From Streptomyces sp. NBC_01237 (GTDB lineage: Bacteria > Actinomycetota > Actinomycetes > Streptomycetales > Streptomycetaceae), in contig NZ_CP108510.1 in the NCBI RefSeq assembly GCF_035917275.1, forward strand, positions 186,001-250,000: a stretch of 64,000 bases of DNA. Reading direction: 5' to 3'. Positions 9,189 to 60,829 of this stretch are shown here, piece by piece. The translations under genes were made by a program, and so were the position numbers. The notes under the pieces are model-generated. The model was not told the DNA's origin. It saw nothing but the letters and a program-made list of their open reading frames with translations, and searched no databases. Every line of letters starts with the position of its first letter. Position 1 is the first letter of the stretch.

Positions 9189-9204
9189 GCAACTTCTGAA
9201 GTGC
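9189..9204 (-). promoter_or_regulatory. cluster element, variant copy (CAACT-N7-TGC)
   Basis: GCAACTTCTGAAGTGC on the plus strand differs in one of the eight consensus bases from CATCT-N7-TGC. It abuts the stop codon of the MFS gene (9205) and marks the left border of the element's distribution. It may be a fortuitous match. Confidence 0.35.
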
Positions 9205-10506
9205 TCATCCGACCAGGCTGAAGCCGGAGGGTTTGGAGGTGGGTGCGGGGGCGGGCGAGCGGATGAGGACCGCGGGCCACGCGAGCAGGACCATGGCCAT
9301 CACTCCGGCGACGAACCAGCCGGAAGCACCGCGCTCACCGAGGTAGGTGGCGAGTGCCGGTGCGATGCCGCCGAGGACGGCCGAGGTGACGGCGTTGGGC
9401 AGACCCAGCCCCAGCGCACGGTTCTCCGTGGGGAAGAGCTCGCAGAGAATGCCGGGAAGGGTCGTCGTGACGCAGGTCAGGTAGACCGTGCCGCTGAGAT
9501 AGGTGAACAGCAGGCTGGTGAAGGTGCCCTCGATGGTCAGGAAGGTGTAGGAACCGGCGACGGCGAAGGCGACGCTCGCCGACAGCAGGAAGCGCCGGGC
9601 ACCCACCTTGTCGGCGAGAAGGCCGATCGGAACGTTGACGATCATGAGGATCGCCGTGGCGCAGACGACGACCCAGAACATCAGCCCCGGGGCGAGTTTC
9701 TGCCCCATGGACGGCACCACGGAGGTCCACGTTCCGCCCACCACCGCCATGCCCGCGATGAACAGCACGGACCTCAGGACCTGACGGCGGTACGTCACGA
9801 GGACCTGGCGCAGGGAACCGCGGGCCGGACGCTCGCCGGCCTCGCGCCGGAAGACCTCGGTCTCGGCGAGCTGACGACGCATGATCATCAGCACCGCGCC
9901 GAAGAGTCCGCCGACGAGGAAGGGGACGCGCCAGCCCCACGAGGCCATGGCCTCGGAGCCGAGCACCGCCGTGAGGCCGCCGCCGAGGAGGGAGGCGGTG
10001 AACGCGCCCGCGACGGTGGTGAGCGAGAAGAGACTGCCGTACAGGGACTTGCGGCGCTGGGGCGCCACCTCCATGAGATAGGCGGCGGCGGCCGGCCACT
10101 CTCCGCCCGAGGAGATGCCCTGGGCGATACGGGCCAGGATCAGGACCGCCGGGGCGAGGAACCCGATCTGGTCGTAGGTGGGGGTGATGCCGATCAGCAC
10201 GGAACCGGCGGTCATCAGGCTGATGGCGAGCATCAGGGCGGGGCGTCGTCCGCGCCGGTCGGCGAGGCGGCCCAGCAGGATGCCGCCCAGCGGACGGACC
10301 AGGACACCGATGCCGAGTACGGCGAACGCGCCGATCAGGGAGGTGACCGGGTTGGAGGACGGGAAGAAGCGGGCTGCGAAGAGATGGGCGAAGAGCCCGT
10401 ATCCGAGCCAGTCGAAGGATTCGACGAAGTTGCCGACGACGGTCGCGGTGACCGCTCGGCGGTGGGCGCGCTCCGGGGAGAGCGGCTTGGATGTCTGACC
10501 GGGCAT
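9205..10506 (-). CDS. MFS transporter, metabolite:H+ symporter (MHS) type
   Basis: The 433-residue protein has about 12 predicted membrane segments. The MHS/ProP-like signature includes GNFVESFDWLGYG near the N-terminus, the loop GRLADRRGRRPAL, and GISSGGEWPAAAAYLMEV. MHS members import small organic acids or betaines by proton symport. Here it follows an AhpD-like gene by 13 bp, so the two are probably co-transcribed. Its substrate, and whether it belongs to the pathway, are not known. Confidence 0.85.
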   Translation of the reverse strand: MPGQTSKPLSPERAHRRAVTATVVGNFVESFDWLGYGLFAHLFAARFFPSSNPVTSLIGAFAVLGIGVLVRPLGGILLGRLADRRGRRPALMLAISLMTAGSVLIGITPTYDQIGFLAPAVLILARIAQGISSGGEWPAAAAYLMEVAPQRRKSLYGSLFSLTTVAGAFTASLLGGGLTAVLGSEAMASWGWRVPFLVGGLFGAVLMIMRRQLAETEVFRREAGERPARGSLRQVLVTYRRQVLRSVLFIAGMAVVGGTWTSVVPSMGQKLAPGLMFWVVVCATAILMIVNVPIGLLADKVGARRFLLSASVAFAVAGSYTFLTIEGTFTSLLFTYLSGTVYLTCVTTTLPGILCELFPTENRALGLGLPNAVTSAVLGGIAPALATYLGERGASGWFVAGVMAMVLLAWPAVLIRSPAPAPTSKPSGFSLVG

Positions 10507-10519
10507 GTGGTCCCGCCTC

Positions 10520-11059
10520 TCAGATGATGGGGGCGTAGCCGTGGGCGGTGATCCGCCGGCCCGACTCCTCGTAGTAACCCGGTTCGCCCGGCAGCTCGGT
10601 GTCGAGGCCGCTGACGTAGCGGTTGTACATGCAGAACGCCGAGGCGATCAGGACGGTGTCGTGCAGATGCGCGTCCGTGGCGCCCTCGGCGCGGGCCGCG
10701 GCCACCACGTCGTCCGGGACGGGGCGGGCCGCGTCGCGGACCTCCGCGGCGATCCGCAGCAGGGCCCGCAGCAGCGGGGACAGCGGCGCCGTGTCCACGT
10801 GGTGGTGGACGGCCTTGACCAGGTCGGCTCCGCCTGCCAGTTGGGCCGCCGCGGCGGCGCCGTGGGTGTCGGCGCAGAAGCGGGTCCCGTTGAGTTCCGA
10901 GACGTACGAGGCGATGAGTTCGCGTTCCCCGCGGCTCAGCGGCGACGGTCCGCGCAGGAGGGCGTCGGCGAGCGCGTTGAGCGGGGCGGCGGTGTCGGGG
11001 CGTTCGGTCATCAGGCCTCTGATGCCGGGAAGGCCGTTGGTGAGCGCTATGTGCGGCAC
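10520..11059 (-). CDS. AhpD-like (carboxymuconolactone decarboxylase family) protein, copy 1
   Basis: The 179-residue product (GTG start, AAAGGA 8 bases upstream) has the all-helical AhpD/CMD fold. The active-site loop reads SELNGTRFCADTH, so one Cys and the His remain, but the first Cys of the usual CxxC is Thr. FCMYNRYVSGL is a second conserved segment. A close paralogue lies at 61056-61589, at the other end of the cluster. The family includes peroxidase partners and decarboxylases; loss of the CxxC argues against disulfide-based peroxidase chemistry. It is followed directly by the MHS transporter. Confidence 0.8.
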   Translation of the reverse strand: MPHIALTNGLPGIRGLMTERPDTAAPLNALADALLRGPSPLSRGERELIASYVSELNGTRFCADTHGAAAAAQLAGGADLVKAVHHHVDTAPLSPLLRALLRIAAEVRDAARPVPDDVVAAARAEGATDAHLHDTVLIASAFCMYNRYVSGLDTELPGEPGYYEESGRRITAHGYAPII

Positions 11060-11227
11060 CGGGTGTGTCCTTTGCTGGTGGCTGTCTCACGGATAGGGGT
11101 TCATCGTCGGCAACCGCTCGATGGGCGGCCAACTCCCGTTGTGCGCAGGGGGTGGTGGCCCGGTCGGTGCGGTTCCGGGGTGAGGCCGGGAAGCTCGCGG
11201 ACCTGCGTCAGCGGGCGCGGGGGCCCG

Positions 11228-11362
11228 TGCAGGAGCCGGAGCTGCTGCCGGAGCGGAAGCCTGAGCGGGAGCCTGAGCGGGAGCCGGAGCTACCGGCGGA
11301 GCCGGAGTGGGAGCCGGAGCTGCTGCCGGAGCCGGAGTGGGAGCTGCTGCCGGAGCCGGTGC
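11228..11362. repeat. degenerate hexanucleotide repeat tract (GAGCCG/CTGCCG type)
   Basis: About 135 bp consist of imperfect tandem GAGCCG, GAGCTG and CTGCCG units, reading as Glu-Pro repeats on one strand and Ala-Pro or Gly-Ser on the other. It begins where the metK remnant loses homology, so it looks like expansion inside or next to a decaying gene. No convincing protein is encoded. Confidence 0.7.
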
Positions 11363-11369
11363 GCCCCGT

Positions 11370-11816: not shown

Positions 11817-11824
11817 GTCGTGGG

Positions 11825-12265
11825 TCAGGCGAAGGTGATCACCTGACCGCCGCCCTCGCCCGAGCCGGTGCCCAGGCCGATCTGGCAGGCGGTGACCTTA
11901 CAGTTCACGCTGCCCCACGGCTCGGTGGCGGAGCCCACCACTGCCTGGAAGGTCGAACGCACGACGATCTGCGTGCTGATCTTGCCCTGGGCGTCGGCGG
12001 TGATGTCCGAGGCGGTGCCGGCATTGCAGCCGTACACGCCCGGCTCGACGAAGGCGCACTGCCCCGCGTGGTAGACGGTTCCGGGCGTCAGGCCGGTCGC
12101 GGAGAGCGTCACCGTCGTCCCGTCGGCGAGTCCGGAGGCCGGAGTCACCGTGACGACCGGTGCGGCCGCCAGCGCGCTCGGGGTCGCGGCGACCCCAAGA
12201 CCTATGGCCAGAGCTGCGGTGGCGCCGACGCGGGTGATGAGGCCGAGCTTGTTCTTGACGGTCAC
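11825..12265 (-). CDS. secreted enediyne chromophore-binding apoprotein (neocarzinostatin/macromomycin family)
   Basis: The 146-residue precursor has a signal peptide ([20 protein letters not shown] to ALA|AP) and a ~113-residue beta-sandwich. Family marks are [28 protein letters not shown] and [10 protein letters not shown]. The two disulfide pairs correspond to [11 protein letters not shown] and CKVTAC. By memory it is closer to macromomycin/auromomycin apoprotein than to those of neocarzinostatin or C-1027. Such proteins carry and protect a nine-membered enediyne and deliver it outside the cell. GTG 12265 follows TAGGAG. It is divergent from an efflux pump, and the shared region holds two cluster elements. 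Confidence 0.92.
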
Positions 12266-12348
12266 GTGGACTCCTAGTCAGATGCGGAAGAGGTACAGCC
12301 TGTTCCGGCTGCTGCAACGATGACGTTACGGAGCTCGCTGCGACTTAG

Positions 12349-12364
12349 GCATCTTCCAAGTTGC
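12349..12364 (-). promoter_or_regulatory. cluster element CATCT-N7-TGC upstream of the apoprotein gene
   Basis: GCATCTTCCAAGTTGC, about 84 bp before the GTG. Its last bases run into the tandem 20-bp repeat at 12361. Confidence 0.7.
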
Positions 12365-12400
12365 TTTCCGAATTTCGCCGTTGCTTTCCGAAATTCGCCG
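12361..12400. repeat. two tandem 20-bp repeats in the apoprotein/efflux promoter region
   Basis: TTGCTTTCCGAATTTCGCCG is followed at once by TTGCTTTCCGAAATTCGCCG, one base different. Each contains a CGAAnTTCG-like small palindrome. Repeats phased at 20 bp are typical of operator arrays. The first overlaps the TTGC end of the cluster element. Confidence 0.7.
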
Positions 12401-12472
12401 GTGGCATACATTCAAGTGTTCGTGAAGGCCGGATACCGGGAGACCTCGAACAGCCGGCCGCGGGAACAGAGA

Positions 12473-12488
12473 GCACGCAGTGAGATGC
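12473..12488 (+). promoter_or_regulatory. cluster element (plus orientation) upstream of the efflux pump gene
   Basis: GCACGCAGTGAGATGC is the reverse complement form of CATCT-N7-TGC. It lies 114-138 bp before the two possible starts of the MFS gene. Confidence 0.6.
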
Positions 12489-12626
12489 GGACGGCCGCTC
12501 GCGCGCGAGACCGTGTGAGGTGGACTCGACGGTACCGACGACCCGGCCCCTACGGCCCTTGACCACCTTCATCACGGGTGCCACGGCTCCACCTCCACAC
12601 TCATGACGACGGGAAGTTTGAGGCAC

Positions 12627-14474: not shown

Positions 14475-15860
14475 TCAGAGAGCGGCCGCTCCGGCGGAGA
14501 CGTCGTCCGCGAAGACGCCGCGCGGGTCGTACCAGCGGCGGATCCGGGCGACGGCCGCCGCCCGGTCCTCGGTGAGGTGGCGTTGCGGCCGGGTGAATCC
14601 CTCCACGAGGGAGGGCACGGTACGGCCGGTGTCCCAGGGCGCGAGGGCCGCGCGCACCGTCGCGCAGTGCTTCTCCAGGGCCTCCACGGTCACCGGGCCG
14701 AACGGGGGGCCCGATCCCATGTAGGCGTACGCCGCGTCCACCTGGTTCAGGACGCCGCCCGCCGGGTCCTCCTCGGCGAACGCGCCGCCGAGCTGGCGGA
14801 GTGTGGCGACGGCCAGTGGTGAGCCGGAGTCCGCCCCCACGGCGCCCAGGAACGCCTCGGCGCCGTCGTCACCGAGCTCCCGCAGCAGGAAGTGGTCGCC
14901 GATGAAGGGGACCGGGTCGGCCGGGTCCATGTGTGCGTCGAGCACCCCGGCCGGTCCGGTGAGCGCCCAGGTGTCGAGCAGGGCGGGCGCGATCTCCCGC
15001 AGCGTTCCCAGGAGTTCGTCCGCGTGCCGCTGGGCCGCGGGGACGTCGTGCGCCGTCGGCGCCAGGACGGCTCCGTCCACGCAGAGCACGGGTCCGGCGG
15101 CGAGCTGCGGCGGGACGCCGGGGACCGGGGGCAGGTTCATCAGGCGCAGTGAGGTGGTGGCCTCCCGCGGCGCGTCCTTCGTCCAGGCGCGCCAGGCCGC
15201 CAGCAGCGGTCCGGCGTCGGCCGCCGACCAGTACGTCGCGCCGGTGACGACCTTCGCCACCGGGAAGAGGGCGACCTCCACGGCGGTGACGACGCCGAAG
15301 CCGCCGCCTCCGCCGCGCAGGGCCCAGAACAGTTCGGGTTCGGTCGTGGCGTCCGCGCGGACGCATCCGCCGTCGGCGGTGACGAGTTCGATCGCCCGCA
15401 CCGTGTTCGCGGCCAGTCCGGTGCGGCGGCCGTAGAAGCTGACGCCGCCGCCGAGCAGGTATCCGATCACCCCGACATCGGCCGCGGATCCGTGTGCCGC
15501 GCCGAGTCCGTGCGGCGCCGCCGCCCTGACGACATCGCCCCAGCGGGCGCCCGCCGGAATCCTGGCGGTGCGCGTGGCCGTGTCGATCTCCACCTCGCCC
15601 GCCGGGGCGGTGCGGATCAGCGCGGAGCCGTCGAGCGGGCGTACGGCCCCGGCGGCGTGCCCGGAGGTGTGCACCCGGACGGTGAGGCCCCGGCGGGTGG
15701 CCGCGAGCACCGCGGCCCGGACCTCGGCCGGCCCGCGTGCGGTGACGGCGGCGGCCGGGTGGGCGGGGGCGGCGAGGTTGAAGACCCGGGCGGCCTCCTC
15801 GTAGTGGGGGGTGCCCGGTTCGGCGAGGGCGTCGTCGTCGCGCACATCGGCCGTACTCAT
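14475..15860 (-). CDS. FAD-linked oxidoreductase (VAO/berberine-bridge type)
   Basis: The 461-residue protein has a PCMH FAD-binding domain (VRVHTSGHAAGAV with the His that usually carries covalent FAD; GVIGYLLGGGVSFYGR; LRGGGGGFGVVTAVEV) and a C-terminal BBE segment (YDPRGVFADD). The second covalent anchor, a Cys before the LGGG loop in bicovalent members, is absent, so a single His link is expected. Family members oxidise alcohols, aldehydes or amines with O2. The start overlaps the stop of the upstream methyltransferase by ATGA, and AGGAGGAG precedes it, so the two are translationally coupled. Substrate unknown. Confidence 0.88.
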   Translation of the reverse strand: MSTADVRDDDALAEPGTPHYEEAARVFNLAAPAHPAAAVTARGPAEVRAAVLAATRRGLTVRVHTSGHAAGAVRPLDGSALIRTAPAGEVEIDTATRTARIPAGARWGDVVRAAAPHGLGAAHGSAADVGVIGYLLGGGVSFYGRRTGLAANTVRAIELVTADGGCVRADATTEPELFWALRGGGGGFGVVTAVEVALFPVAKVVTGATYWSAADAGPLLAAWRAWTKDAPREATTSLRLMNLPPVPGVPPQLAAGPVLCVDGAVLAPTAHDVPAAQRHADELLGTLREIAPALLDTWALTGPAGVLDAHMDPADPVPFIGDHFLLRELGDDGAEAFLGAVGADSGSPLAVATLRQLGGAFAEEDPAGGVLNQVDAAYAYMGSGPPFGPVTVEALEKHCATVRAALAPWDTGRTVPSLVEGFTRPQRHLTEDRAAAVARIRRWYDPRGVFADDVSAGAAAL

Positions 15861-17404
15861 GAACGGGTCTCCTCCTGGTCGTCGCGGACGGCGGTCAGAA
15901 AGACGAACGTCCCCGGTCCGCTCTCCTCGCGCACGGTCAGGCCCGCCGCGGCCAGCCAGCGGCCGAGGTCCTCGGGGTCGAACAGCTGGAGTCCTCCGTC
16001 GTGCTGGGGGAACCTGTGGGCCGACTGGAAGTAGCTGTAGACCGGGTCCTCGGAGCGACGGAACGTCAGCACCGTGAAGGTGCCGCCGGGCCGCAGGATC
16101 CGGCCGACCTCGGTGATCGCCGCCTCGGCCTCGTGGTAGAAGGCCTGGAGGGCGTTCCAGCAGACGACCGCGCCGACCGACGCGTCCGCGAAGGGCAGGT
16201 CGGAGGCGCCGGCCAGTACCGAGGGGACGTCGGGAAGCCGGCCGCGCAGCACGTTGAGCATGGGCAGTGAGCTGTCGACGGCGACCAGCCGGTCGGCACC
16301 GACGGTCTCGGCGATGACGGTGGTCCAGCGTCCGGCTCCGGCGGCGAGGTCGACCACCGGGCCGTCGACCGGCTGTATGTGGGTGGCGAGGTAGTGGTCC
16401 TCGTCGGCCGGGGTCACCTGGCCGCCCCAGTTGGAGCCGGAGACGCGCAGGAAGGAGGGCCGGGCCACCGCTTCGTAGAACAGCCCCATGCTGGGCACCT
16501 GGGAGAGCTTCTCCAGGAAGTCGTCGACGGCACCGTCCCCGGTGGCGGGCGCGGTCAGGTCGAGGATGCCGTTCGCGGCGGGGTAACGGGCCGGGCAGCC
16601 GGTGCAGTTCAGGAGGTCCTCGGCGGGCTCCAGGGTGCCGCGGCAGGCCGGGCAGCGCAGGGCGCCGGTGTGCGGTGCGAAGAGGGAGGTGTCGGCGGGC
16701 GGCGCGCTGGCGTGGGCCCGGTCGGGCACGGTGGCCGCGGGGGCGTCCTGCGGGTCGCCGTTGCGGACCGCCCAGTAGGCGCGGGCGCCGATGCAGCCGA
16801 GCACCGTCCGGGTGTCGTTCTCCCAGGCCGCCCGGATCTGCTCGCCGCTGAGCGCCTTGATCCAGCTCGCGTCGAAGGCCCGCTCGTCCTCGTTGAGGGT
16901 CCAGGCCGACGGGGAGGGCCACACCCGGCCGAGGTCGGGCCGCTCGGGGTCGAGTTCGCTCAGCCCGCGGTGCAGCCGTGACAGGTCCTCGGGCTCCAGA
17001 CCGAGGTCCAGGGTGGCGGTGAGGATCGTGTCCCGGTCGGCCGGGAAGTGTGCGAGGAGATAGAGCAGCGCGAGGGTGAGCGGCGTGCCGATGCCGTCGG
17101 TGCGCACCAGGTCGAGGTAGAGGCCGAGGTGGGCGCGGATCTCCTCGGTGACCGGTCCGGCCGCCGGGTACTCGGCCTCGGCGAGCAGTCCGAGCAGGAT
17201 CGCCAGGTGGCCCCGGCTGTCGTGGTCGGACCGTTCGAGCGCGGCCACCAGCGACGGCACGGCCGCGAGCGCGGCGGGCGAGAGTTCGCCCTGGTGCCAG
17301 AGGCCGTCCACCAGGGCGCGGAACTTTGCCTCGCGGACCTCCGGGGCCGCGTCGGCGAAGGCGTCGACAAGGCCGGCGGCGGCGTGAGCGGTGGAGAAGT
17401 TCAT
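15857..17404 (-). CDS. methyltransferase with N-terminal helical repeat domain and zinc-ribbon (Trm112-like) insert
   Basis: The 515-residue product has three parts. Residues ~1-200 are Leu/Ala-rich helical pairs resembling HEAT repeats (AALAAVPSLVAALERS, GHLAILLGLLAEAEYP). At ~250-285 there is a zinc-ribbon, CPACRGTLEP...LLNCTGC. The rest is a class I SAM-methyltransferase: VVDLAAGAGRWT, VAVDSSLPML, ASDLPFADASVGAVVCWNALQ. It is therefore a SAM-dependent methyltransferase acting on an unknown substrate; the helical domain may dock a protein partner. First gene of a two-gene operon with the FAD oxidoreductase; a cluster element lies 120 bp upstream. Confidence 0.85.
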   Translation of the reverse strand: MNFSTAHAAAGLVDAFADAAPEVREAKFRALVDGLWHQGELSPAALAAVPSLVAALERSDHDSRGHLAILLGLLAEAEYPAAGPVTEEIRAHLGLYLDLVRTDGIGTPLTLALLYLLAHFPADRDTILTATLDLGLEPEDLSRLHRGLSELDPERPDLGRVWPSPSAWTLNEDERAFDASWIKALSGEQIRAAWENDTRTVLGCIGARAYWAVRNGDPQDAPAATVPDRAHASAPPADTSLFAPHTGALRCPACRGTLEPAEDLLNCTGCPARYPAANGILDLTAPATGDGAVDDFLEKLSQVPSMGLFYEAVARPSFLRVSGSNWGGQVTPADEDHYLATHIQPVDGPVVDLAAGAGRWTTVIAETVGADRLVAVDSSLPMLNVLRGRLPDVPSVLAGASDLPFADASVGAVVCWNALQAFYHEAEAAITEVGRILRPGGTFTVLTFRRSEDPVYSYFQSAHRFPQHDGGLQLFDPEDLGRWLAAAGLTVREESGPGTFVFLTAVRDDQEETRS

Positions 17405-17523
17405 CTACGCGTCCTCTCGGGATCGGTGCGGCAGGGCCTGTGCCGCGTGGGGGCACGACGGCGCGCCGAGCGCGCCGGGCCGGTCACCCGGACGGTGATG
17501 CTTCCAGTGGGCGGGAGCCGCGC

Positions 17524-17539
17524 GCATCTTCTGAACTGC
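17524..17539 (-). promoter_or_regulatory. cluster element upstream of the methyltransferase operon
   Basis: GCATCTTCTGAACTGC on the plus strand, 120 bp before the minus-strand ATG. It is paired with an opposite-facing copy 22 bp to the right. Confidence 0.75.
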
Positions 17540-17561
17540 GCTGACGCTCCGGGCCCATGGA

Positions 17562-17577
17562 GCAATTCGCAAGATGC
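17562..17577 (+). promoter_or_regulatory. cluster element upstream of the epoxide hydrolase gene
   Basis: GCAATTCGCAAGATGC, reverse orientation, 130 bp before ATG 17707. With the copy at 17524 it forms a symmetrical divergent control region. Confidence 0.75.
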
Positions 17578-17706
17578 GGCGGGCTTCGGCGGCGGCGGAC
17601 GATACAGCCGGGCGCGCCGAGTGCGGCCGGGGCCGATCCGGTCGCCGGTGAGCCCTCCATCCGCCTTCGACGACCCTTTCCGGCCCGGACATCACGGAGT
17701 GCTCCC

Positions 17707-20395: not shown

Positions 20396-20665
20396 TCACA
20401 CGCCGAGCACCCGGTCGGTGTTGCGGTAGTAGTCGAATTCCACGGCCTGTCCGTCGAGGGCGATCCGGAGCTCGGCGAGCGAGGCCCGTACGGCGGCGAG
20501 CACGGCCGGGACCCGGCAGTTGTCGGCGAGGTAGCCCAGCGTGCGGTAGCTCTCCATGAGGTGGAGCTCCTGCTCGGCGGTCAGGTACTCGGCCGTGGGC
20601 TGCCACGGCGTCAGGATCTCGTCCGTCGGGGGTTCAGCCGTGAGCTGTGAGGACTCGTTCGTCAT
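20396..20665 (-). CDS. small protein of unknown function coupled to an acyl-adenylate ligase
   Basis: The 89-residue product begins MTNESSQLTAEPPTDEI and has an acidic start followed by a predicted helical region (TAEQELHLMESYRTLGYLA, PAVLAAVRASLAELRIAL). I recognise no family. Its start overlaps the last 32 bp of the ligase gene, indicating translational coupling and suggesting that the two products act together, for example as a small accessory subunit. GGAAGG lies 12 bases upstream of the ATG. A strong terminator follows at once. Confidence 0.65.
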   Translation of the reverse strand: MTNESSQLTAEPPTDEILTPWQPTAEYLTAEQELHLMESYRTLGYLADNCRVPAVLAAVRASLAELRIALDGQAVEFDYYRNTDRVLGV

Positions 20666-21944
20666 GAAGTCGTGCCGCCTTCCAGTTCGTTCGGGGCAGG
20701 CTGCCCGCCGGGGCGAGCTCCACCTGGGGCCGGATGCCGATCTCGCGCTTGAACTCCTCGGTGATGCGCGCGCACAGCAGCTGCGCGGCCTCCGCTCCGA
20801 GCCCTCCCGCGTCGATCTTGACGTGGATGGTGTCGAGGCCGCGCACGGTCCGGATGGCCGAGTGGAACTCGTTGACCTCGGCGAAGCCGCGTACGACGTC
20901 CTCGATCATGACGGGGGTGATGGAGACGCCCCGGATCTTGCGCATGTCGTCGACGCGCCGCAGGATGCCGCCGTCGTAGAAGTCCCAGGTCCTGCCGCAG
21001 CCGCACTCGCCGTACGGCCGCTTGACGACCACGTCCTCGGTCCAGTGCCGGAAGAGCTGGATGCCCTCACGGGCCAGGCCGGTGGTCACCCGGACGCCCT
21101 CCTCGCCGTAGCCGACCGGCTGGAGGGTCTCGGGGTGCAGCACCTCGTCGTAGCAGGAGGGCTCGATGATGTGGCAGGCTCCGCGCCGCTGCGGGCACTC
21201 GAACATGAAGACGCCGCCGAACTCGGTGGTGCCGGCCGCGTTGAAGACGCGGGCGCCGAACGCCTCCTCGATGGTCCGGGTGGTGAAGTCGGAGCGCGGT
21301 TCGGCGCCGGCGAGCATCACCTGGACGTTCGCGTCGCGGGCGAGGTCGATGCCCATGTCGCGGGCGGTCTCGATCAGCCGCATCGCATAGCTCGGGGTGA
21401 GGCCGAGCACTTCGATCCGGTAGTCGACCAGCAGGCGCACGACGGTTTTCGAATCGAGGCCGCCGGCGGGAACGACGGTGCAGCCCATGCGCTCCAGCGC
21501 GTAGTGCATCCCCCAGAACCCGGCGAAGAGGCCGTAGCCGAAGGCCACCAGTCCCCTGTGGTGCGGGCGCACCCCGTTGGCGTGCAGCGCGGTGCAGAAG
21601 GTGTCCACGCACCAGGCCCAGTCGCGTTCGGTGTCGAACGTGCGGATGGGCGGGTTGCCGCTGGTGCCGCTGGTCTGGTGGTGGCGCACTCCGCGTGAGG
21701 GGTCCAGCGAGGGCCAGGTGCCGTACGGGGGCGCGACCGCCTCGGCGGCCAGCAGGTCCTTCTTGTACAGCAGCGGCATCCGCGCCGCGTAGTCCTGCGG
21801 GGAATCGATGCCGTCGGGTATACGTCCGTTCCAGAACGGTGAGTTCCGCTTGGCGTGGTCGAGTGCCTGCCGGAGCCTGCGCCATTGCCATGCCTCTAGT
21901 TGCGGGCGGGGCATGGTCTCCGCCCTACTGTTCCAGTACGTCAC
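20634..21944 (-). CDS. PaaK-like acyl-adenylate/CoA ligase 1 (benzoxazolinate cassette)
   Basis: This is a 436-residue member of the phenylacetate-CoA ligase branch of the ANL superfamily. Marks are the P-loop HHQTSGTSGNPP, AAGTTEFGG (adenylate site), HWTEDVVVKR and YDGGILRRVDDMRKIRGV. PaaK-type enzymes adenylate aromatic acids and usually form CoA thioesters. In benzoxazolinate pathways an acyl-AMP-ligase-like enzyme also performs the ring closure of 3-enolpyruvoylanthranilate. Two such ligases occur here, so one may be the cyclase and one the CoA ligase; I cannot say which. GTG 21944 follows GGAGG at close spacing. A cluster element lies 58 bp upstream. Confidence 0.85.
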   Translation of the reverse strand: MTYWNSRAETMPRPQLEAWQWRRLRQALDHAKRNSPFWNGRIPDGIDSPQDYAARMPLLYKKDLLAAEAVAPPYGTWPSLDPSRGVRHHQTSGTSGNPPIRTFDTERDWAWCVDTFCTALHANGVRPHHRGLVAFGYGLFAGFWGMHYALERMGCTVVPAGGLDSKTVVRLLVDYRIEVLGLTPSYAMRLIETARDMGIDLARDANVQVMLAGAEPRSDFTTRTIEEAFGARVFNAAGTTEFGGVFMFECPQRRGACHIIEPSCYDEVLHPETLQPVGYGEEGVRVTTGLAREGIQLFRHWTEDVVVKRPYGECGCGRTWDFYDGGILRRVDDMRKIRGVSITPVMIEDVVRGFAEVNEFHSAIRTVRGLDTIHVKIDAGGLGAEAAQLLCARITEEFKREIGIRPQVELAPAGSLPRTNWKAARLHDERVLTAHG

Positions 21945-22001
21945 GACGCCTCCGTTGCACAGTGCCGACACCACTGACTCTTCTCGTTCGGCGGGGGCCC
22001 G

Positions 22002-22017
22002 GCATCTTTGGACGTGC
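22002..22017 (-). promoter_or_regulatory. cluster element upstream of ligase 1
   Basis: GCATCTTTGGACGTGC, 58 bp before GTG 21944, in the 96-bp gap after the amidotransferase gene. Confidence 0.7.
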
Positions 22018-22040
22018 GCACTTGTGTTCGGTGTTCCGTG

Positions 22041-24191: not shown

Positions 24192-25616
24192 TCATGTCGT
24201 GATCGCGTAGCGGTGCGCGACCTCGCGGGCGGCCCGCACGGCCCCGTCGAGGCCCGACCTGTGGTCGAGGACCCGGGCGGCCTTCCAGCTGACGAAGGAG
24301 CCGGTGTGGGTGACCGGGTCCAGGTCGGCGTCGACGGCGATGTCGGCATGGGCTCCCGTGCGTTCGCGCAGCCGGGCCGCGACGGCGGCCGCCGGGTCCG
24401 CCGCACCGGGCAGCAGGTCCATCCGCACGGTGATCCGGTCGCCTTCGGGGCCGCCGTCGACGACGACCTGGTAGCCCAGGCATCCCCGTACGTCCCCCAG
24501 TACGGCGGCTTCGAGCTCCGCGGGGTGCAGGAGGACGTCCCCCAGCGGGATACGGTCGGCGGCGCGCCCGACGACCTCGACCACCGGGCCGGGCAGTGCC
24601 GCTCCGGGCGGTGCGGGGGTGATGCGGACGAGGTCGCCGGTCCGGTAGCGGATCAGCGGCTTGATGCCGTCGACGAGCATGGTCAGGACCAGCTCGCCCT
24701 CGCCGAACTCGCCGCGCGGGGCGCCGGTGTCGGGATCGACCAGCTCCGCCAGGTAGTTGGGCGTGGCCAGGTGGAGGGCGCCGGTGTCGGCACCGGTCGC
24801 GATGCAGAGGGCTTCCTGGGAGCCGTACAGGGCGGGGCGGACGACGGCGTGCGGCCAGACCGAGGAGACGTTGGCGGCGAACTCGGGGGTGCAGATCTCG
24901 CCGAGGACCAGGAACAGCTTGACGGGGAGGTCCGCCAGGTCGTACCCGTAGTGCCGGGCCGCCTTGGCCAGGCTGAGGCAGAGGGCCGGCGCACAGACGA
25001 TGACCTCGACCCCGAGCTCCTCGATGAGACGCAGGGCCTTGCGGAAACCGACCCGGGGGGACTCCGGCCAGATCTTGACGTGACAGGCGCCGAGCGAGGC
25101 GGCGACGTCGGTGAACACATCACCGAAGGCGTACAGCTCCGAGGGCCCCATGAGTCCCACCACGGGCATGCGGTCGCCGAAGTGCGCGCGGAACAGGCGC
25201 CGCCAGGACTCCTCGACAGAGGCGTTGGAGGTGGCGATGTCGACCGCGCCGCGCGGGCACGGAGTGGCGGCCCCGGTGGTGCCGTTGGTCTCGTAATAGA
25301 TGCTCGCCGCGGAGAGGGGACCGCTGAGCACGTCGTACATCTCGCGCCGCAGGTCGTCCTTGGTGGTGAAAGGGAGCGTGTTCAACGTATCGGGGGTCAC
25401 GGCCGTGATGTCGGTCCCGGCCAGGTGGCGCCGGTAGAACGGAGAGCGTTCGGTGACGTGGTGGAGCACGGTGGTCAGCCGCCGGGCGCGCCAGTCGGCC
25501 AGCTCCCGCGGTGACAGGGAGGCGTCGTGGAAGGCCCGGCTGACGCGGCGGTAGTCGGTGAGGAAGTCCTGGAGGTCCGCGTCGGCCGGGGCGCAGGGCA
25601 GGGTCGGCGCGCTCAC
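24192..25616 (-). CDS. PaaK-like acyl-adenylate ligase 2 (benzoxazolinate cassette)
   Basis: This second ANL-superfamily ligase (474 residues) has the P-loop [38 protein letters not shown] and [17 protein letters not shown]. It differs clearly from ligase 1, so the two are not a recent duplication. GTG 25616 overlaps the TGA of the SgcG-like gene (GTGA), and the ADIC synthase begins 16 bp after its stop. Because it is embedded between two early benzoxazolinate genes, I favour it as the adenylating cyclase; that is inference. A longer start at 25628 is possible. Confidence 0.82.
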
Positions 25617-26362
25617 TGGCGGGCCCACACGTCGTCGGCGAGTTCCCGGACCGTCTCATCCACAGCCGTCACGTCCACGACCGCCTCGTCCGCGGCGGCG
25701 GGGCCCGTCTCGTTCAGGGCGAGCCCGATGCGCTCGTTGACCTCGCGGGCGGCGAGCAGGTTGTCACGTCCGGTCAGGGTGCGGTGCTCGTCGAGCAGTT
25801 CCATCATGTCGGTCATCCGGTCGATCAGGCGCTGGACGTTGGTGAGCCCCTCGTCGTCCTTGAGCGCGTCTCCCCGGTGCAGCGCGTGGACCGTGGCGGG
25901 GAATCCGCTCCCGACCACGATCATGCGGTTGAGCAGCGCGTTCACCGTCAGCTGGGCCCACACCTCGCCGGCGCTGTAGCGGCGGGCCACGGAGATGATG
26001 CCCGCGACCTTGTTGCTCAGCGGCCGGTCGAAACGCAGGTAGCCGACACCGGCCCGCTCGATGAAGGTCTGCATCAGGCTGGCCGTCCCGAAGCCGTGGA
26101 CGGGAGCGGCGAAGACGATGCCGTCGGCCTCGACCATCTTCCTGATCACGCCGGGCACCCCGTCCTCCAGGGCGCACGGGACCGGGCGGTCGTTGCAGTC
26201 ACCGCACGGTCCGCAGCGCGACATCTGGATGTTCCGCAGGTCGACGGTCTCCCACTGGACCCCCCGCGCGGCGGCGACCGCCGCGGCGTGGCGCAGGACA
26301 TCGCTGGTGTTGCCGTCCCGTTCCGATCCGTTGATCGCGAGGATCTTGAGTGGTGTGGTCAC
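25613..26362 (-). CDS. iron-sulfur flavoprotein, ADIC dehydrogenase (SgcG-like)
   Basis: The 249-residue product has the flavodoxin-like NADPH-dependent FMN reductase fold ([39 protein letters not shown]). A compact cysteine cluster [14 protein letters not shown] (CX2CX2CX6C) follows residue ~50 and binds a [4Fe-4S] centre in iron-sulfur flavoproteins. SgcG of C-1027 is exactly this type: it oxidises ADIC to 3-enolpyruvoylanthranilate, the committed benzoxazolinate step. GTG 26362 follows AAGGAG by 8 bases. First gene of the ISF-ligase-ADIC synthase-GATase operon; a cluster element lies 109 bp upstream. Confidence 0.88.
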
Positions 26363-26470
26363 GGGATGTCTCCTTCGCTGGATACGGCTGCGGGCACCGG
26401 GTCCGCCGTACTTCGGGTCGCTGCTACTTCGGCGACTCCCCGAAATCGTCGCGTCTGCGGGTATGGGGAG

Positions 26471-26486
26471 GCATCTCTTGGAATGC
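26471..26486 (-). promoter_or_regulatory. cluster element upstream of the benzoxazolinate operon
   Basis: GCATCTCTTGGAATGC, 109 bp before GTG 26362. Confidence 0.75.
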
Positions 26487-26538
26487 TGTGCAAAAGGGGG
26501 CGCCCGCGTGAGGGTCACGTACCGGATGTGCGGTACGG

Positions 26539-27932: not shown

Positions 27933-28937
27933 TCAGGCGGCGTCGAGCTGGATGATCGCCGAGGGCCCGGCCGGGTGTACGGCCGTCACCTTCAGCCCGG
28001 CGGCGGAGGCGAGCACGGCGAACTCCTCGACGCTGCGTTCCTGGGCGCCGTAGACGGCGAGCATGCGCAGATCCATTCCGGTACGGGGGGTGTCGCCGTC
28101 GGAGCCGATCGACTCGATGACGAAGACCGATCCCCCGGCGCCGGCCGCCTCGGCGCAGCGCCGCAGGATGGCCACGGAGTCGTCGTCGTCCCAGTCGTGC
28201 AGGATCAGCGAGAGCAGGTATCCGCCGGCTCCGGCGGGCAGCGGGTCGAAGAAGCTGCCGGTCACGGCGGTGGCGCGCTGGGCCAGGCCCGCCGCGGCGA
28301 ACGACTTCGCCGCGGCGCGGGTGGCGTCGGCCAGGTCGACGACGCTGCCGTGCAGATCGGGGTGAGCGGTCAGCAGTGCGCTCAGGAGCGATCCGTCGCC
28401 ACCGCCGACATCGATGACATGGCCGAGCGAGGACCAGTCGAACCCGTCGACGATGGCGGGCGCGCGGACCGCGACGTCCTCGCCGAGCAGTCTGTTGAAG
28501 GCTTCGGCGCGGTCCGTGTCCGCGGCGAGGTCCTCCCAGTAGGTCCGGCCGTAGCGGACGGGGAAGGCGGCCTCACCGGTGCGGATGCTGTGCAGCAGCT
28601 CGACGAAGGACAGTTCGCCGCGGCCCCCGCTGCCGATGTCGAACCAGAGCCGGATACCGGCCGGGTGGTCCTCGCGCAGCGGCTGCCCGAGCGGGGTGAG
28701 GGTGTAACGGCCCTCTGCGTCCCGCGCGAGCACGCCGCGCACCGTGAGGTAGCGCAGGAGGCGGTCGAGCGCGCCGGGGTGGGCGCCGGCCGCTTCGGCC
28801 AGGTCCTCCACGGTGTGCCGTCCGGCCTGGATGTGGTCGGCGAGGTGCAGCGTCGCCGCCACCCGCACGGCCATCGGGGTGCCCAGGTTGGCCATCGACC
28901 ACAGCTTGGCGGCAGAGCCGTCCGCGTCGCCCTTCAC
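27933..28937 (-). CDS. SAM-dependent O-methyltransferase (plant-type/DUF1205-like dimer fold)
   Basis: The 334-residue protein has the N-terminal winged-helix dimerisation domain of O-methyltransferases (LHLADHIQAGRHTVEDLAEA, PGALDRLLRYLTVRGVL) and a C-terminal SAM fold (HVIDVGGGDGSLL, GSFFDPLPAG, LSLILHDWDDDDS). The LHDWDD segment carries the catalytic His of aromatic O-methyltransferases. It most likely methylates the phenol made by the downstream P450. GTG 28937 is chosen because AAAGGA precedes it by 6 bases; an upstream GTG at 28955 is less likely. A cluster element lies 73 bp upstream. Confidence 0.88.
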   Translation of the reverse strand: MKGDADGSAAKLWSMANLGTPMAVRVAATLHLADHIQAGRHTVEDLAEAAGAHPGALDRLLRYLTVRGVLARDAEGRYTLTPLGQPLREDHPAGIRLWFDIGSGGRGELSFVELLHSIRTGEAAFPVRYGRTYWEDLAADTDRAEAFNRLLGEDVAVRAPAIVDGFDWSSLGHVIDVGGGDGSLLSALLTAHPDLHGSVVDLADATRAAAKSFAAAGLAQRATAVTGSFFDPLPAGAGGYLLSLILHDWDDDDSVAILRRCAEAAGAGGSVFVIESIGSDGDTPRTGMDLRMLAVYGAQERSVEEFAVLASAAGLKVTAVHPAGPSAIIQLDAA

Positions 28938-29008
28938 GGCGTGTCCTTTCTCCACAGCGGGCCCGGAGGGCACCGCGTAGCCCATCCTTGCGCAGCTCCG
29001 GAGACCGC

Positions 29009-29024
29009 CCATCTCCTGAAGTGC
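29009..29024 (-). promoter_or_regulatory. cluster element upstream of the O-methyltransferase-P450 operon
   Basis: CCATCTCCTGAAGTGC, 73 bp before GTG 28937. Confidence 0.75.
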
Positions 29025-29050
29025 GCTGATTTCAGGGGCTGTTCACGACG

Positions 29051-32105: not shown

Positions 32106-32185
32106 GCTTCTCCTGGAATGAGCGGCTTCGTGGGGGTGCACGCAGTGGTGCCCAAACTCAGGCTCTCCCGCCGGGACCGGGAAGC

Positions 32186-32201
32186 GCATCTTCCAGATTG
32201 C
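32186..32201 (-). promoter_or_regulatory. cluster element upstream of the alpha/beta-hydrolase gene
   Basis: GCATCTTCCAGATTGC, 81 bp before ATG 32105. Confidence 0.75.
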
Positions 32202-32259
32202 TGTAACCGGTTGCGTCGCACACCGGACGGCGGAAGAGGCGCTTCCCGGGCCGGGTGCT

Positions 32260-33579: not shown

Positions 33580-33638
33580 TACGGTGAGCTCCTCTGGATA
33601 GATGGCTCATTCAGGATGGGTCTGGCTCGTTTTAGAAG

Positions 33639-33654
33639 CCATCTTCTGAAGTGC
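33639..33654 (-). promoter_or_regulatory. cluster element upstream of the acyltransferase gene
   Basis: CCATCTTCTGAAGTGC. CTGAAG within it is repeated in inverse as CTTCAG 6 bases later, so this copy sits in a small dyad. Confidence 0.75.
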
Positions 33655-33687
33655 TGTCTTCAGAAAGGGAGTTGATGTTGTGTGTGA

Positions 33688-46524: not shown

Positions 46525-46544
46525 CGGCCCGTCGCGGCGGCACG

Positions 46545-46560
46545 GCAATCCAGGAGATGC
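46545..46560 (+). promoter_or_regulatory. cluster element upstream of the NRPS operon
   Basis: GCAATCCAGGAGATGC, plus orientation, 106 bp before ATG 46666. Its presence shows that the A-T/C/oxygenase/P450 genes have their own promoter. Confidence 0.75.
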
Positions 46561-46665
46561 AGGGCCACGGCGCGGTCTGTGAACGTGGCGCCATACCCGA
46601 GAGTGCGCCGTGCCGGGGCGACATCGCCCGCGGACACGGATACGGCTGAGCGGATTGGACGGACG

Positions 46666-54710: not shown

Positions 54711-55892
54711 TCAGATGTAGAGCGTGTTCGGCTCCTGGCCGCACAGGACGCGGCCGTAGAGCTCGTTGTTCGTGTTCGGGTTCATCAGGGCGTGCAGGTT
54801 GATCGCCTGGATGTCGCGGACGACGCGCTGGATGGGAACGTCGCGGTAGATCGAGGAGCCGCCGCTGGCGGAGGCGAGCAGGTCGACGGCCTCCTTGGCG
54901 AGCCGGCACACGGCACCCAGGTCGGCGCGGGCGCGGGCGCGCTCCTCCAGCGTCCAGGTGTCGCCGGACTCGCCCTTGCTGTCCACGAGCGAGGCCAGCC
55001 GGTGGGCGTGGAACTCGGCCTGATCGGTCTTGAGCGTCGCCTCGGCCGCCTGGAAGTGGGTGAGCGGCGCCTCGGACTGCTGCTGGTAGGTGGTGTAGGT
55101 GATGGTGCGTCCCGGCAGCCGCTCGAAGAAGAGGTCCCGGGCGGCCTGGGCCAGCCCCAGCGCGGTGCCCACCGACGAGGCCGAGGCGACGGGCAGCAGC
55201 GGGGTGCGGTAGACGGGCGTCCGGGCGTTCAGCTCGGAGGCGTAACTCCCCTGGAGGATCGCGCCGAGCGGCAGGACGCGCTCCTGCGGGACGAAGAGGT
55301 CCTGGGCGACGGTGCTCACGCTGCCGGTGGCGCGCAGACCGGTGGTGTCCCAGTCGTCGATGATCGTCAGGTCCTCGATCGGCACCAGGGCCATCACGGG
55401 CTGCGGCGGTCCGTCGGGACCCTGAAGGACGGCGATGATCTCCTGCCAGTGGCTGTGCCGGGCGCCGCTGACGAAGCCCCACTTGCCGTTGACGGTGATA
55501 CCGCCGGGCGCGGGCGTGGCCAGCGCGGACGGGCTGAGGGTGCCGCAGATGCGGACGTCCGGGGTGGAGAAGACCTCGTCCTGGACGCTGTCGGGGAACA
55601 GGCAGGTCATCCAGGTCGGGATCCAGTAGACGGCCGTGGTCCAGGCCGCTGCGCCGTCGGCACGGCCGAGGGCGGCCGCGACATCGACGAGGGTACGGGT
55701 GTCGGCCTCGAAGCCGCCGTAGCGCTTGGGCACCCGCAGCCGGAAGAAGCCGGCGTCCCCCAGCGCCTCGACGGTCTCGTCCTGGAGTCTGCCGTCCTGC
55801 TCCGCCTGCGCGGCGTTCTTCTTCAGAAGCGGTGCCAGCTCGACTGCGCGCTGGACGAGTTGCGCCCGCGTGGGGATGTCGGCGGTCAGCAT
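54711..55892 (-). CDS. flavin-dependent oxygenase of the acyl-CoA dehydrogenase fold (group D), second copy
   Basis: The 393-residue protein shares architecture with the product at 49976: FRLRVPKRYGGFEADTRTL, WGFVSGARHSHWQEIIAVL, WDTTGLRATGS and a Gly/Ser-rich ASASGGSSIYRDVP. It is a typical aromatic or amine hydroxylase of the HsaA/nitrososynthase-like group and needs an external flavin reductase. First gene of the operon with the SgcJ-like and FAD genes; AGGAGG precedes ATG 55892. A cluster element lies 76 bp upstream. Confidence 0.85.
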   Translation of the reverse strand: MLTADIPTRAQLVQRAVELAPLLKKNAAQAEQDGRLQDETVEALGDAGFFRLRVPKRYGGFEADTRTLVDVAAALGRADGAAAWTTAVYWIPTWMTCLFPDSVQDEVFSTPDVRICGTLSPSALATPAPGGITVNGKWGFVSGARHSHWQEIIAVLQGPDGPPQPVMALVPIEDLTIIDDWDTTGLRATGSVSTVAQDLFVPQERVLPLGAILQGSYASELNARTPVYRTPLLPVASASSVGTALGLAQAARDLFFERLPGRTITYTTYQQQSEAPLTHFQAAEATLKTDQAEFHAHRLASLVDSKGESGDTWTLEERARARADLGAVCRLAKEAVDLLASASGGSSIYRDVPIQRVVRDIQAINLHALMNPNTNNELYGRVLCGQEPNTLYI

Positions 55893-55967
55893 CGGTTTCC
55901 TCCTGGACATGACGATCGTGAAGAGTGGCAGGGCTGGACAGACCGTCACATCGGCAGGGGACGGGCG

Positions 55968-55983
55968 GCACCTCTTGGATTGC
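55968..55983 (-). promoter_or_regulatory. cluster element (CACCT variant) in the flavin-oxygenase/HpaB divergent region
   Basis: GCACCTCTTGGATTGC has one change from CATCT-N7-TGC. It faces the minus-strand operon 76 bp away; the plus-strand HpaB gene starts 187 bp to the right with no copy of its own. Confidence 0.65.
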
Positions 55984-56169
55984 GCACCTGTCGTCGGCGG
56001 CACGGCGCCGGAGGACGTCGCAGCCCCGCGGCGGGCCGTTCACGGATGCGTGCGGCGGTCCCGCACGCAGGGAGAAGCCCTGGTCGCCGCCGACTGCCAC
56101 GATGGCATCCCGGCCACGCCCGCGCGCCCCGGCATCGGGCGGTGAGGGGACTTCGAGGGAAGAGGGCTC

Positions 56170-57880: not shown

Positions 57881-57941
57881 GTCCGCGTTGCCGCGGGCCG
57901 TCGCCGCGGCCGCTGTGCCGTCGCGACCGCGGCCCGTCGGG

Positions 57942-59612: not shown

Positions 59613-59705
59613 GCTGACTCCTACCCGCCCCGGGCCGACAGGAGGCGCCGGCTTCCGGGGGCGGTGACGGCGGCAGCCGGGCGTGAGGTACCGGGGAGCG
59701 GGGCA

Positions 59706-60704
59706 TCAGGCCAGCTCGAAGATGACCTCTCCGACGGTCAGCTCGATGCGGTTGGTGCGTACGAGTTCCCAGCCGCCCTCGGCGAACACCGACTGCCAGT
59801 CGTCGACGGTCGGCAGGAAGGTGCCCATCAGGTCGTGCCCGAGCTCGAAGCCGAGGGTGAAGACCGGCAGTTCGGTGTCCGGCAGCGCGGTACGGGTGGC
59901 GTCGCCGATCAGCAGCCGGCGCGCGGACGGGAAGACCTCGCGCAGTCGGCGCAGGGTCGCCACGCAGTTCTCGCGCGGCCAGAAGTCGTGGCCCATCATG
60001 AAGCAGGTGACCAGTTCGATGTCGGCGAACTCCGGGCGCGGCTCCAGCCGGAGCACATCCCCCTGCACGAACTCGGATCGGTCGGAGAGACCGGCGTCGG
60101 CGGCTTCCTTGCGCGCCACCTCCAGGGACGGGGCGGCGATGTCGACGCCGGTGCCCGTGCTGTCGGGGAAGCGGCGCAGCAGGTCCATCAGCCGGCCGCC
60201 GCTGCCGCAGCCGAGGTCCGCGACGCGGGTCACGGGGAAGTCGAGGCGGTCGATGGCTCCCCGGTAGGCCGGGGCGTAGGTGATGTCGTCGATCTCGCGG
60301 CAGGCGAACGCGATGGCCGCCGGGTCCCGGCGGTAGTAGGCGCCGGTGCGCTGTTCGTTGCGCAGCACCCGCGGTATCTGCTGGAACAGTTCGGCGCTGC
60401 CCCGGCCGAGCCAGTGGAAGAAGGACTTGTTGTGGTACACCGCGTCGAACCCCGGCAGCGGGGTCACGGTGGCGCCCTCGCGGTGGACCAGTCCGACCGA
60501 GGCCATGGCCCGGAAGAGACCGTTCGTGGAGAGAGCGTCGAGACTGTTGCGGTCGGCGAATTCGGCTGTGTCCAGGGTGCGTTCGCGGTAGAGAACTTCC
60601 AGTGCGCCCACCTCCCACGCGGCGGCGATGGCGAAGGCCGCGACGGCCGAGTTGTAGATCGTGGCAACGCTGCGCGCGCTGGTCGGCGCGATGTCAACGG
60701 TCAC
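59706..60704 (-). CDS. SAM-dependent methyltransferase
   Basis: The 332-residue protein has an N-terminal helical domain (IYNSAVAAFAIAAAWEVGALE, a winged-helix-like region) and a class I SAM fold: RVADLGCGSGGRLMDLLRRF, GVDIAAPSLEVARKEA, QGDVLRLEP. It differs from the aromatic O-methyltransferase at 27933. The acceptor is unknown; C- or O-methylation are both possible. GTG 60704 follows GAGGTG by 7 bases; ATG 60719 with a weaker AGGA is the alternative. A cluster element lies 110 bp upstream. Confidence 0.83.
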   Translation of the reverse strand: MTVDIAPTSARSVATIYNSAVAAFAIAAAWEVGALEVLYRERTLDTAEFADRNSLDALSTNGLFRAMASVGLVHREGATVTPLPGFDAVYHNKSFFHWLGRGSAELFQQIPRVLRNEQRTGAYYRRDPAAIAFACREIDDITYAPAYRGAIDRLDFPVTRVADLGCGSGGRLMDLLRRFPDSTGTGVDIAAPSLEVARKEAADAGLSDRSEFVQGDVLRLEPRPEFADIELVTCFMMGHDFWPRENCVATLRRLREVFPSARRLLIGDATRTALPDTELPVFTLGFELGHDLMGTFLPTVDDWQSVFAEGGWELVRTNRIELTVGEVIFELA

Positions 60705-60813
60705 TGCTGAGCACCTCATCCCGGTGGTCCTGCGACGGGTCGTCCCCGCCCTGGCCCACCGGCAGAACCGGTGGGCGATTCGCGGTCCATGTTCCGAGCG
60801 CCCGTCGGGGCGG

Positions 60814-60829
60814 GCATCTCCGGCGTTGC
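60814..60829 (-). promoter_or_regulatory. cluster element upstream of the methyltransferase-TPP enzyme genes
   Basis: GCATCTCCGGCGTTGC, about 110 bp before GTG 60704. Confidence 0.65.

Follow-up and report, generated by a model that had tools for sequence, protein, structure and literature searches.

The window analysed here, a stretch of 64,000 nucleotides from Streptomyces sp. NBC_01237 (positions 186001-250000 of the 316-kb contig C3), carries repeated copies of a short box, CATCT-N7-TGC, in front of genes of a biosynthetic cluster. Window coordinates are used throughout and run on past 64,000 for the adjoining sequence. According to Pfam, proteins encoded in the window include a neocarzinostatin-type apoprotein (gene 11825-12265), chorismate-binding and glutamine-amidotransferase enzymes, a 4-hydroxyphenylacetate 3-hydroxylase-type enzyme, free-standing adenylation and condensation proteins of nonribosomal peptide synthetase (NRPS) type and an O-methyltransferase. 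Past the window end, DUF5987, cytochrome P450, FG-GAP/UnbV-type and two DUF1702 proteins represent parts of an enediyne cassette. An open frame of 1937 residues amid this cassette stands at the position of the enediyne polyketide synthase (PKS), a putative assignment made by place. Because of this cassette content, and since one cassette protein is 87% identical to its counterpart in Streptomyces globisporus C-1027, the cluster, which extends past the window, looks like a C-1027-like nine-membered enediyne cluster.

Four C-1027 regulators have counterparts in the cluster (Table 1). The C-1027 record carries the names SgcD, SgcG, SgcE6 and SgcJ. We infer the loci of sgcR1, sgcR2, sgcR3 and sgcE1 from their place, size and the description in PMC2657911; WQO_RS33930 is taken as SgcR3 from place and size.

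The box in the window and in the genome

Eleven exact copies of the box are found in the window, whereas 1.01 are expected from shuffled sequences (the largest count in 100 shuffles was 4). A sequence-only reading of the window had already described this number as far from chance, which agrees with our counts. The thirteen sites it listed were all recovered: the eleven exact copies and two with one mismatch, CACCT at 55969 and CAACT at 9190. Its positions appear shifted by one base for plus strand matches, the starts there including the base before CATCT. If one mismatch is permitted, the total in the window does not exceed chance (36 found, 32 expected), so the two mismatched copies rest on their placement, their -10-like hexamer and their matrix score (see below).

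Read in gene direction, 13 of 13 copies are GCA-N7-AG(A/G/T)TG, and each is followed by a called gene on the same strand, in line with the single orientation noticed before. The box is asymmetric and consists of two words one helical turn apart (for the 76 sites aligned below, a called start downstream was required). Gene starts were taken from a composition-based caller of this analysis, and the 13 boxes lie 23-240 bp before them; upstream placement thus holds, in a range wider than the 58-145 bp first estimated. For boxes 22003 and 29010, the caller probably set the gene start too early; box 26472 would fall inside the longest frame of gene 25613-26518. Two copies facing divergent genes at 17525/17562 were confirmed, and a second such pair, 12350/12473, is located between the apoprotein gene and the gene of an MFS transporter.

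Density of the box across the genome is unequal, so the equal genome-wide density that the sequence-only reading had named as a refutation was not observed. The whole genome (10.19 Mb) contains 101 exact copies, 11 of them inside the window and 90 in the other 10.13 Mb. Together with a copy at C3:276748, the cluster has 12 exact boxes, and 89 are found elsewhere.

Composite of the box and a -10-like hexamer

The 13 window sites served to train a position matrix. Thresholds on its score vary with the scan: 14 for plasmids and 40-kb regions of other genomes, 13 for a scan that included G112, G293 and G317, 15.5 for the alignment, the permuted-matrix and the L077-L089 scans, and 11 plus hexamer for a survey of 118 loci. 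The alignment comprises 76 sites that score above 15.5 and have a called start 15-350 bp downstream. Sites were contributed by 23 of 25 sequences judged box-bearing, namely the cluster itself, the cluster on the C-1027 plasmid SGLP1, stretches L012-L019 and 15 regions of other genomes, of which G277 and G346 yielded no sites. Fifteen sites belong to the own cluster and seven lie inside called genes. G161, G384, G392, G275, G094, G391, G073, G317, G112, G293 and G221 were left out.

Column counts of the 76 sites extend the box by W (position -3), T (4), C (6) and G (8), giving the 19-bp consensus W-n-n-GCA-n-TYC-n-G-R-AGATGC; GCA is followed by A or C in 61 sites. Besides the box, an AnnnT block stands out at 36-41. 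The corresponding hexamer begins 35, 36 or 37 bases past the G of GCA in 27, 45 and 2 sites, respectively, that is in 74 of 76, although it was not used in site selection. For comparison, offsets 46-74 show AnnnT in a mean of 0.28 (own cluster) and 0.93 (remaining sequences) sites per offset. Only SGLP1 90433 and G259 39172 are devoid of the hexamer. Its consensus is GACGAT, and 5 of the 74 hexamers begin with T. A distance of 19-21 bp separates it from AGATGC. In the own genome, the hexamer accompanies all 12 exact boxes of the cluster and 5 of the 89 elsewhere (Fisher p about 5e-12).

We regard the hexamer as a predicted -10. If it occupies -12 to -7, the box would reach from about -51 to -33 and be centred near -41, and would thus sit at a fixed distance from the predicted -10, in the place of a -35. 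Composites of the window and two further sites of the cluster are listed in Table 1. A symmetric dimer site, suggested by the dyad look of GCAnTTC and GAAGATGC, was dropped because the spacings of the arms differ and orientation is fixed. Outside the cluster, two of five composite matches (C1:3786935-3786976 and C2:1330203-1330243) have boxes that look good by eye and may be further targets.

Table 1. Composite promoters and regulator genes of the cluster, in window coordinates
Feature	Span	Strand	Box	Hexamer	Downstream gene or remark
Composite	9164-9207	-	9189-9207 (AGTTG variant)	CATCGT 9164-9169	next called gene DUF4287 (8655-8948), 240 bp off
Composite	12323-12367	-	12349-12367	TAACGT 12323-12328	neocarzinostatin-type apoprotein, 11825-12265
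Composite	12470-12514	+	12470-12488	GACCGT 12509-12514	MFS transporter, ending 14282
Composite	17498-17542	-	17524-17542	AAGCAT 17498-17503	gene 15857-17404
Composite	17559-17603	+	17559-17577	GACGAT 17598-17603	epoxide hydrolase, ending 18879
Composite	21977-22020	-	22002-22020	AAGAGT 21977-21982	AMP-binding, called 20634-21974, start probably further in
Composite	26445-26489	-	26471-26489	GACGAT 26445-26450	flavoprotein (called start 26362), chorismate-enzyme genes after it
Composite	28984-29027	-	29009-29027	AAGGAT 28984-28989	O-methyltransferase, called 27933-28985, start probably further in
Composite	32160-32204	-	32186-32204	GAGCCT 32160-32165	alpha/beta hydrolase, 31323-32105
Composite	33613-33657	-	33639-33657	CATCCT 33613-33618	acyltransferase, called 32260-33492
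Composite	46542-46586	+	46542-46560	GAACGT 46581-46586	NRPS adenylation-PCP (peptidyl carrier protein), ending 48438
Composite	55942-55986	-	55968-55986 (AGGTG variant)	GACGGT 55942-55947	acyl-CoA dehydrogenase-like, called 54711-55892
Composite	60789-60832	-	60814-60832	GAACAT 60789-60794	methyltransferase, called 59706-60704
Further site (13-site matrix)			69104-69122
Further site (13-site matrix)			90774-90792		before DUF1702/UnbV/PKS operon
SgcR3-like XRE-TPR (TylR-like) gene	63056-64471				only regulator gene found reaching into window; 82-85% identity to SgcR3
SgcR1-like StrR-like gene	75575-76558				adjoins AraC gene
SgcR2-like AraC-type gene	76584-77360 (L004:14584-15360)				73% identical to SgcR2 over 246 residues
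SgcE1-like HxlR-type gene	90842 to about 91285				beside PKS operon, kept there

Occurrence in other clusters and genomes

Past the 64 kb, the element is also present in C-1027 and other enediyne clusters. SGLP1 contains 15 matches above 14, 14 of them intergenic, as opposed to one for the reversed matrix. At 15.5, 12 sites are found in the SGLP1 cluster against 0.30 for 200 permuted matrices, while the rest of the plasmid gives 0 against 0.30. Eight other 50-kb plasmid stretches have 3 to 8 matches each, 38 in total, where the reversed matrix gives 4; each of the eight has a box before the DUF1702 operon. In C-1027 and related plasmid clusters, the composite precedes the DUF1702/PKS operon as well as other operons.

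In the survey of 118 loci, loci were grouped by the recognition helix of their AraC protein; they are not independent, as many are close relatives and at least five places occur twice (G016/L148, G283/L077, G197/L079, G346/L125, G391/L138). Composites were detected in 25 of 26 loci with FSKFHF-type AraC (114 sites, 16 of them from the training cluster, versus 3.9 for permuted matrices), in 37 of 67 with VSP[FY]HFSR-type AraC (60 versus 7.1) and in 14 of 18 with other AraC types, L019 included (33 versus 2.0). Loci without a match to the AraC helix pattern have composites in 3 of 7 cases (3 sites versus 1.4); this class is defined by the pattern, and its members G112, G221 and G094 do have AraC relatives by tblastn.

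All 13 loci L077-L089 (12 Nocardiopsis, one Glycomyces) have a composite upstream of the AraC gene itself, at a distance of 245-366 bp; in 11 loci it scores above 15.5. This suggests that the AraC gene may be autoregulated there. In the examined stretch of G269, two strong boxes (33658 and 44924) are located within 6 kb of a gene for an AraC relative (57% identity) and before non-enediyne genes: a ribonucleotide-reductase-like gene with an MFS transporter, and a run of aldehyde dehydrogenase, TPP (thiamine pyrophosphate), AMP-binding and ketosynthase genes. An UnbV match is absent from the G269 genome at 1e-10.

L151 (Streptomyces scopuliridis) and L156 (S. albus), both with the more distant AraC type YSSTGSFTRRF, possess four composite sites each at similar positions, pointing to a possible related regulon of a different pathway.

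Candidate binding proteins and proposed mode of action

The best candidate for the binder is the SgcR2-type AraC protein, whose gene lies about 12.6 kb past the window end. The protein, like SgcR2, matches PF12833 and PF00165, and in a PDB sequence search its DNA-binding domain matches RamA, AdpA, Rob, SoxS and MarA. The predicted structure (mean pLDDT 84) comprises two domains. The seven-helix AraC DNA-binding domain (about residues 1-112) matches AdpA-DNA, MarA-DNA, SoxS and RamA chains in fold, and the C-terminal domain is beta-rich. A PDB fold search with the full-length protein gave no convincing match (best TM-score to query 0.40). In the model, the beta-rich residues about 128-245 have no Pfam match and might form a ligand-sensing part.

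Lineages in which the C-1027 regulators are separated from each other are informative. G299, G323, G259, G369, G307 and G151 each have an AraC relative of 47-52% identity, while StrR-, HxlR- and XRE-type relatives are absent at 1e-6 from their 40-kb regions. These six clusters contain 17 matches above 14 (16 places; 7 of 17 inside called genes) and none for the reversed matrix. Plasmid NZ_CP108847 (487 kb; the plasmid alone was searched) likewise carries boxes and an AraC relative (48%), with no StrR match. Among the C-1027 regulators compared, AraC relatives alone thus appear to accompany the box where lineages separate them. On these grounds, the boxes are very probably bound by the SgcR2-type AraC activator, and the composite would represent an activator-dependent enediyne promoter. 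The sequence-only reading had left the choice between the operator of an unseen pathway activator and an unusual promoter; our results favour both at once, and the activator was unseen because its gene lies beyond the window.

Several observations weigh against this assignment. In 29 Amycolatopsis-type loci, hand-picked among loci with an UnbV match, the recognition helices of the AraC relatives look similar, and thresholds 8-14 reveal no excess of the box (4 matches at 14 versus 6.9 for permuted matrices); a few of these loci have a lone weak composite. No box above 13 is seen in G112 and G293, which have both a StrR-like and an AraC-like gene (identity about 35%), or in G317, with an AraC relative (about 40%). 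The box is likewise missing from G391 despite its AraC relative, and L102 has FSKFHF-type AraC and no composite. The type of recognition helix fails to separate box-bearing Nocardiopsis from box-free Amycolatopsis loci. Boxes above 15.5, taken alone, are not significant in G143, G277, G151, G283 and G019, and G346 has none. For a housekeeping -10, the hexamer with its rare initial T (5 of 74) is unusual. Moreover, StrR-like and AraC genes adjoin in Streptomyces clusters, therefore only other lineages separate the two, and the examined region of G283 holds a weak HxlR relative (38% over 94 residues). Since the Amycolatopsis-type loci, G112, G293, G317 and G391 have AraC relatives without the box, the box, as far as these loci tell, belongs to part of the AraC family.

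StrR-type proteins are classic cluster activators, and the StrR-like gene is a conserved neighbour of the AraC gene in Streptomyces enediyne clusters, so that the box could be the operator of this SgcR1 homologue. In C-1027, sgcR1R2 act below SgcR3 (PMC2657911). A StrR relative is, however, absent genome-wide at 1e-8 from 11 of 13 box-bearing genomes (present in G016 and G197), and none was matched on NZ_CP108847, where no positive control was available but elsewhere the same query matched 83 plasmid records. G112 and G293 show the reverse, StrR relatives with no box above 13. The StrR operator is a long inverted repeat with an 11-bp spacer, unlike the asymmetric box in its one orientation. 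It resembles the box as a cluster-wide activator operator of actinomycete antibiotic clusters and differs in that its regulator is missing from those 11 genomes and one plasmid. Binding by the StrR-like protein is thus improbable, and the poor fit to StrR-type sites remarked on earlier agrees with this, even though the StrR-like gene adjoins the AraC gene. Recognition by the HxlR-type SgcE1 homologue, as repressor, would be in keeping with the preservation of its gene beside the PKS operon, with the weak relative in G283 and with the HxlR protein TnmR1, which binds several promoters of the tiancimycin cluster (PMC9464397). HxlR relatives are nevertheless lacking at 1e-6 in 40 kb of the six box-bearing clusters and in 50 kb of L019, and those detected at 1e-20 in 10 of 13 genomes are all located outside the examined regions and at most 51% identical, which leaves this reading hardly credible.

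The SgcR3/TylR-like XRE-TPR protein is encoded by the only regulator gene found to reach into the window, and SgcR3 is an essential activator in C-1027 (PMC2657911). Out of eight fragments in its electrophoretic mobility shift assay (EMSA), C-1027 SgcR3 shifted only the one upstream of sgcR1R2, those upstream of sgcA1, sgcB1, sgcC1, sgcD2, sgcK, cagA and sgcR3 being unshifted (PMC2657911). The 455 bp before sgcR1 contain no composite down to score 5. On the contrary, upstream regions of the halogenase/thymidylyltransferase genes (we take sgcA1 to be the thymidylyltransferase gene) and of the apoprotein gene do have composites, at 26904 (20.3), 28712 (13.7) and 26930 (9.0), two of the three being weak; this comparison covers the sgcR1R2, sgcA1 and apoprotein regions among the probes. 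None of 13 box-bearing genomes has an SgcR3 relative at 1e-30, in a search without positive control (the own homologue matched 40 plasmid records elsewhere). We therefore consider it extremely unlikely that this protein binds the boxes. Because SgcR3 bound the sgcR1R2 fragment alone, which is devoid of a composite, the data would fit a hierarchy with SgcR3 at a higher level and a different protein working at the boxes. Recognition by an alternative sigma factor without any activator would account for the fixed spacing to the non-canonical GACGAT hexamer and for the box near the -35 position. The usual -35/-10 spacing is 16-18 bp, and 19-21 bp from AGATGC to the hexamer is long for such a pair; GCA is conserved at about -48, the box follows an AraC gene, and no sigma gene was found among the Pfam-scanned proteins, which cover part of the cluster genes. 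A sigma factor acting alone is thus very unlikely. The conserved DDE_5 protein described below was also tried as binder and rejected, as it has no match in the examined regions of G299, G323, G259, G016, G369, G307 and G151.

In the mechanism we propose for the SgcR2-type activator, each copy of the composite would be an activator-dependent promoter of the enediyne pathway. The activator would bind the 19-bp box, its first helix-turn-helix reading GCA and the second reading AGATG one helical turn on; two units reading different words would explain why the box is asymmetric and faces the same way relative to the gene. From the -35 place, with its centre near -41, the bound protein might recruit RNA polymerase to a weak -10 hexamer (consensus GACGAT) located some 20 bases beyond the box, in the manner of RamA at a class II promoter. 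If the order of events follows C-1027, the StrR-like/AraC operon would be activated first, by the SgcR3-like protein; its AraC product would in turn activate the structural operons, that of the polyketide synthase among them.

Such an arrangement resembles the marbox of MarA, SoxS, Rob and RamA. At micF, RamA binds a class II site near -41, CACT-7X-AAA (PMC8811837). Two short words seven bases apart (GCA-7X-AGATG in our case), a centre near -41 and an AraC-type double helix-turn-helix domain are common to both (PMC8811837). The box differs in its second word, AGATG instead of AAA, and in its first, GCA instead of a CAC-type word. It is carried by many operons of one biosynthetic pathway, its -10 is GACGAT-like, and the protein has a C-terminal beta-rich domain without Pfam match. 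In addition, RamA sites occur in both orientations, the box in one. The box may thus work like a marbox, and its sequence indicates that it is not one.

SgcR2 is called a positive regulator in PMC8210685, which cites Chen et al. 2010. UcmR7, an SgcR2 homologue of 34% identity, is conserved among several enediyne clusters (PMC8210685). In another such cluster, AraC-type TnmR7 is a positive regulator. Its loss reduced tnmD by a factor of over 350 and tnmO by one of over 100, and the tnmD, tnmM1 and tnmN units fell in the tnmR7 deletion; the protein was insoluble and was left out of the EMSA experiments (PMC9464397). Our candidate, 73% identical to SgcR2, resembles these positive regulators, TnmR7 by description, and differs from them in that the accessible parts of PMC8210685 and PMC9464397 give no operator for them. 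SgcR3 has a homologue of 82-85% identity in the own cluster and differs in that its bound fragment lacks the composite. No description of the element was found in accessible literature on enediyne, C-1027, TylR and marbox regulation; most subscription papers were beyond this coverage, so absence from print is unproven. As far as seen, the operator, its -10 and its reach would be new, whereas the kind of mechanism, AraC class II, is known.

Activators of the SgcR2/UcmR7/TnmR7 type are known genetically, one of them being insoluble for a binding assay, and their operator is undescribed in the parts of the literature seen. The composite promoter would provide a sequence-level definition of their regulon and predict transcription starts for many operons; it would also allow clusters to be delimited and their regulator to be predicted in uncharacterised genomes from sequence alone. 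A more speculative and rather doubtful extension is that the SgcR2-type protein, its box and the GACGAT hexamer constitute a dedicated promoter class that moved as a module between unrelated actinobacterial pathways, enediyne and non-enediyne alike, with genes silent in the absence of the activator (or of a special sigma factor working with it) owing to the non-canonical -10, whose first base is rarely T.

Other recurrent sequences and genes were seen during this work. AT-rich words of the AAA-N12-TATT type are strongly over-represented upstream in L012-L019 and are possibly gamma-butyrolactone receptor sites near ScbA/ScbR genes. When 17 Amycolatopsis/Actinopolyspora-type loci from the range L091 to L142 were searched de novo for two-word motifs, composition noise came first and then CTA-N4-CAGT, common to their upstream regions (13 found, 0.6 expected). 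It might be a different operator or reflect shared descent of these related loci. The UnbV-type cassette match at G392:C3:260885-262633 holds one TGA. Finally, a DDE_5 "transposase"-type gene is located beside the enediyne cassette (92605-93846, minus strand; L005:10605-11846). Such a gene is also found near the cassette in SGLP1, in 7 of 8 other plasmid stretches (not L019) and in 2 of 19 regions of other genomes (G143, G277). Copies are 54-77% identical and look vertically kept, perhaps domesticated.

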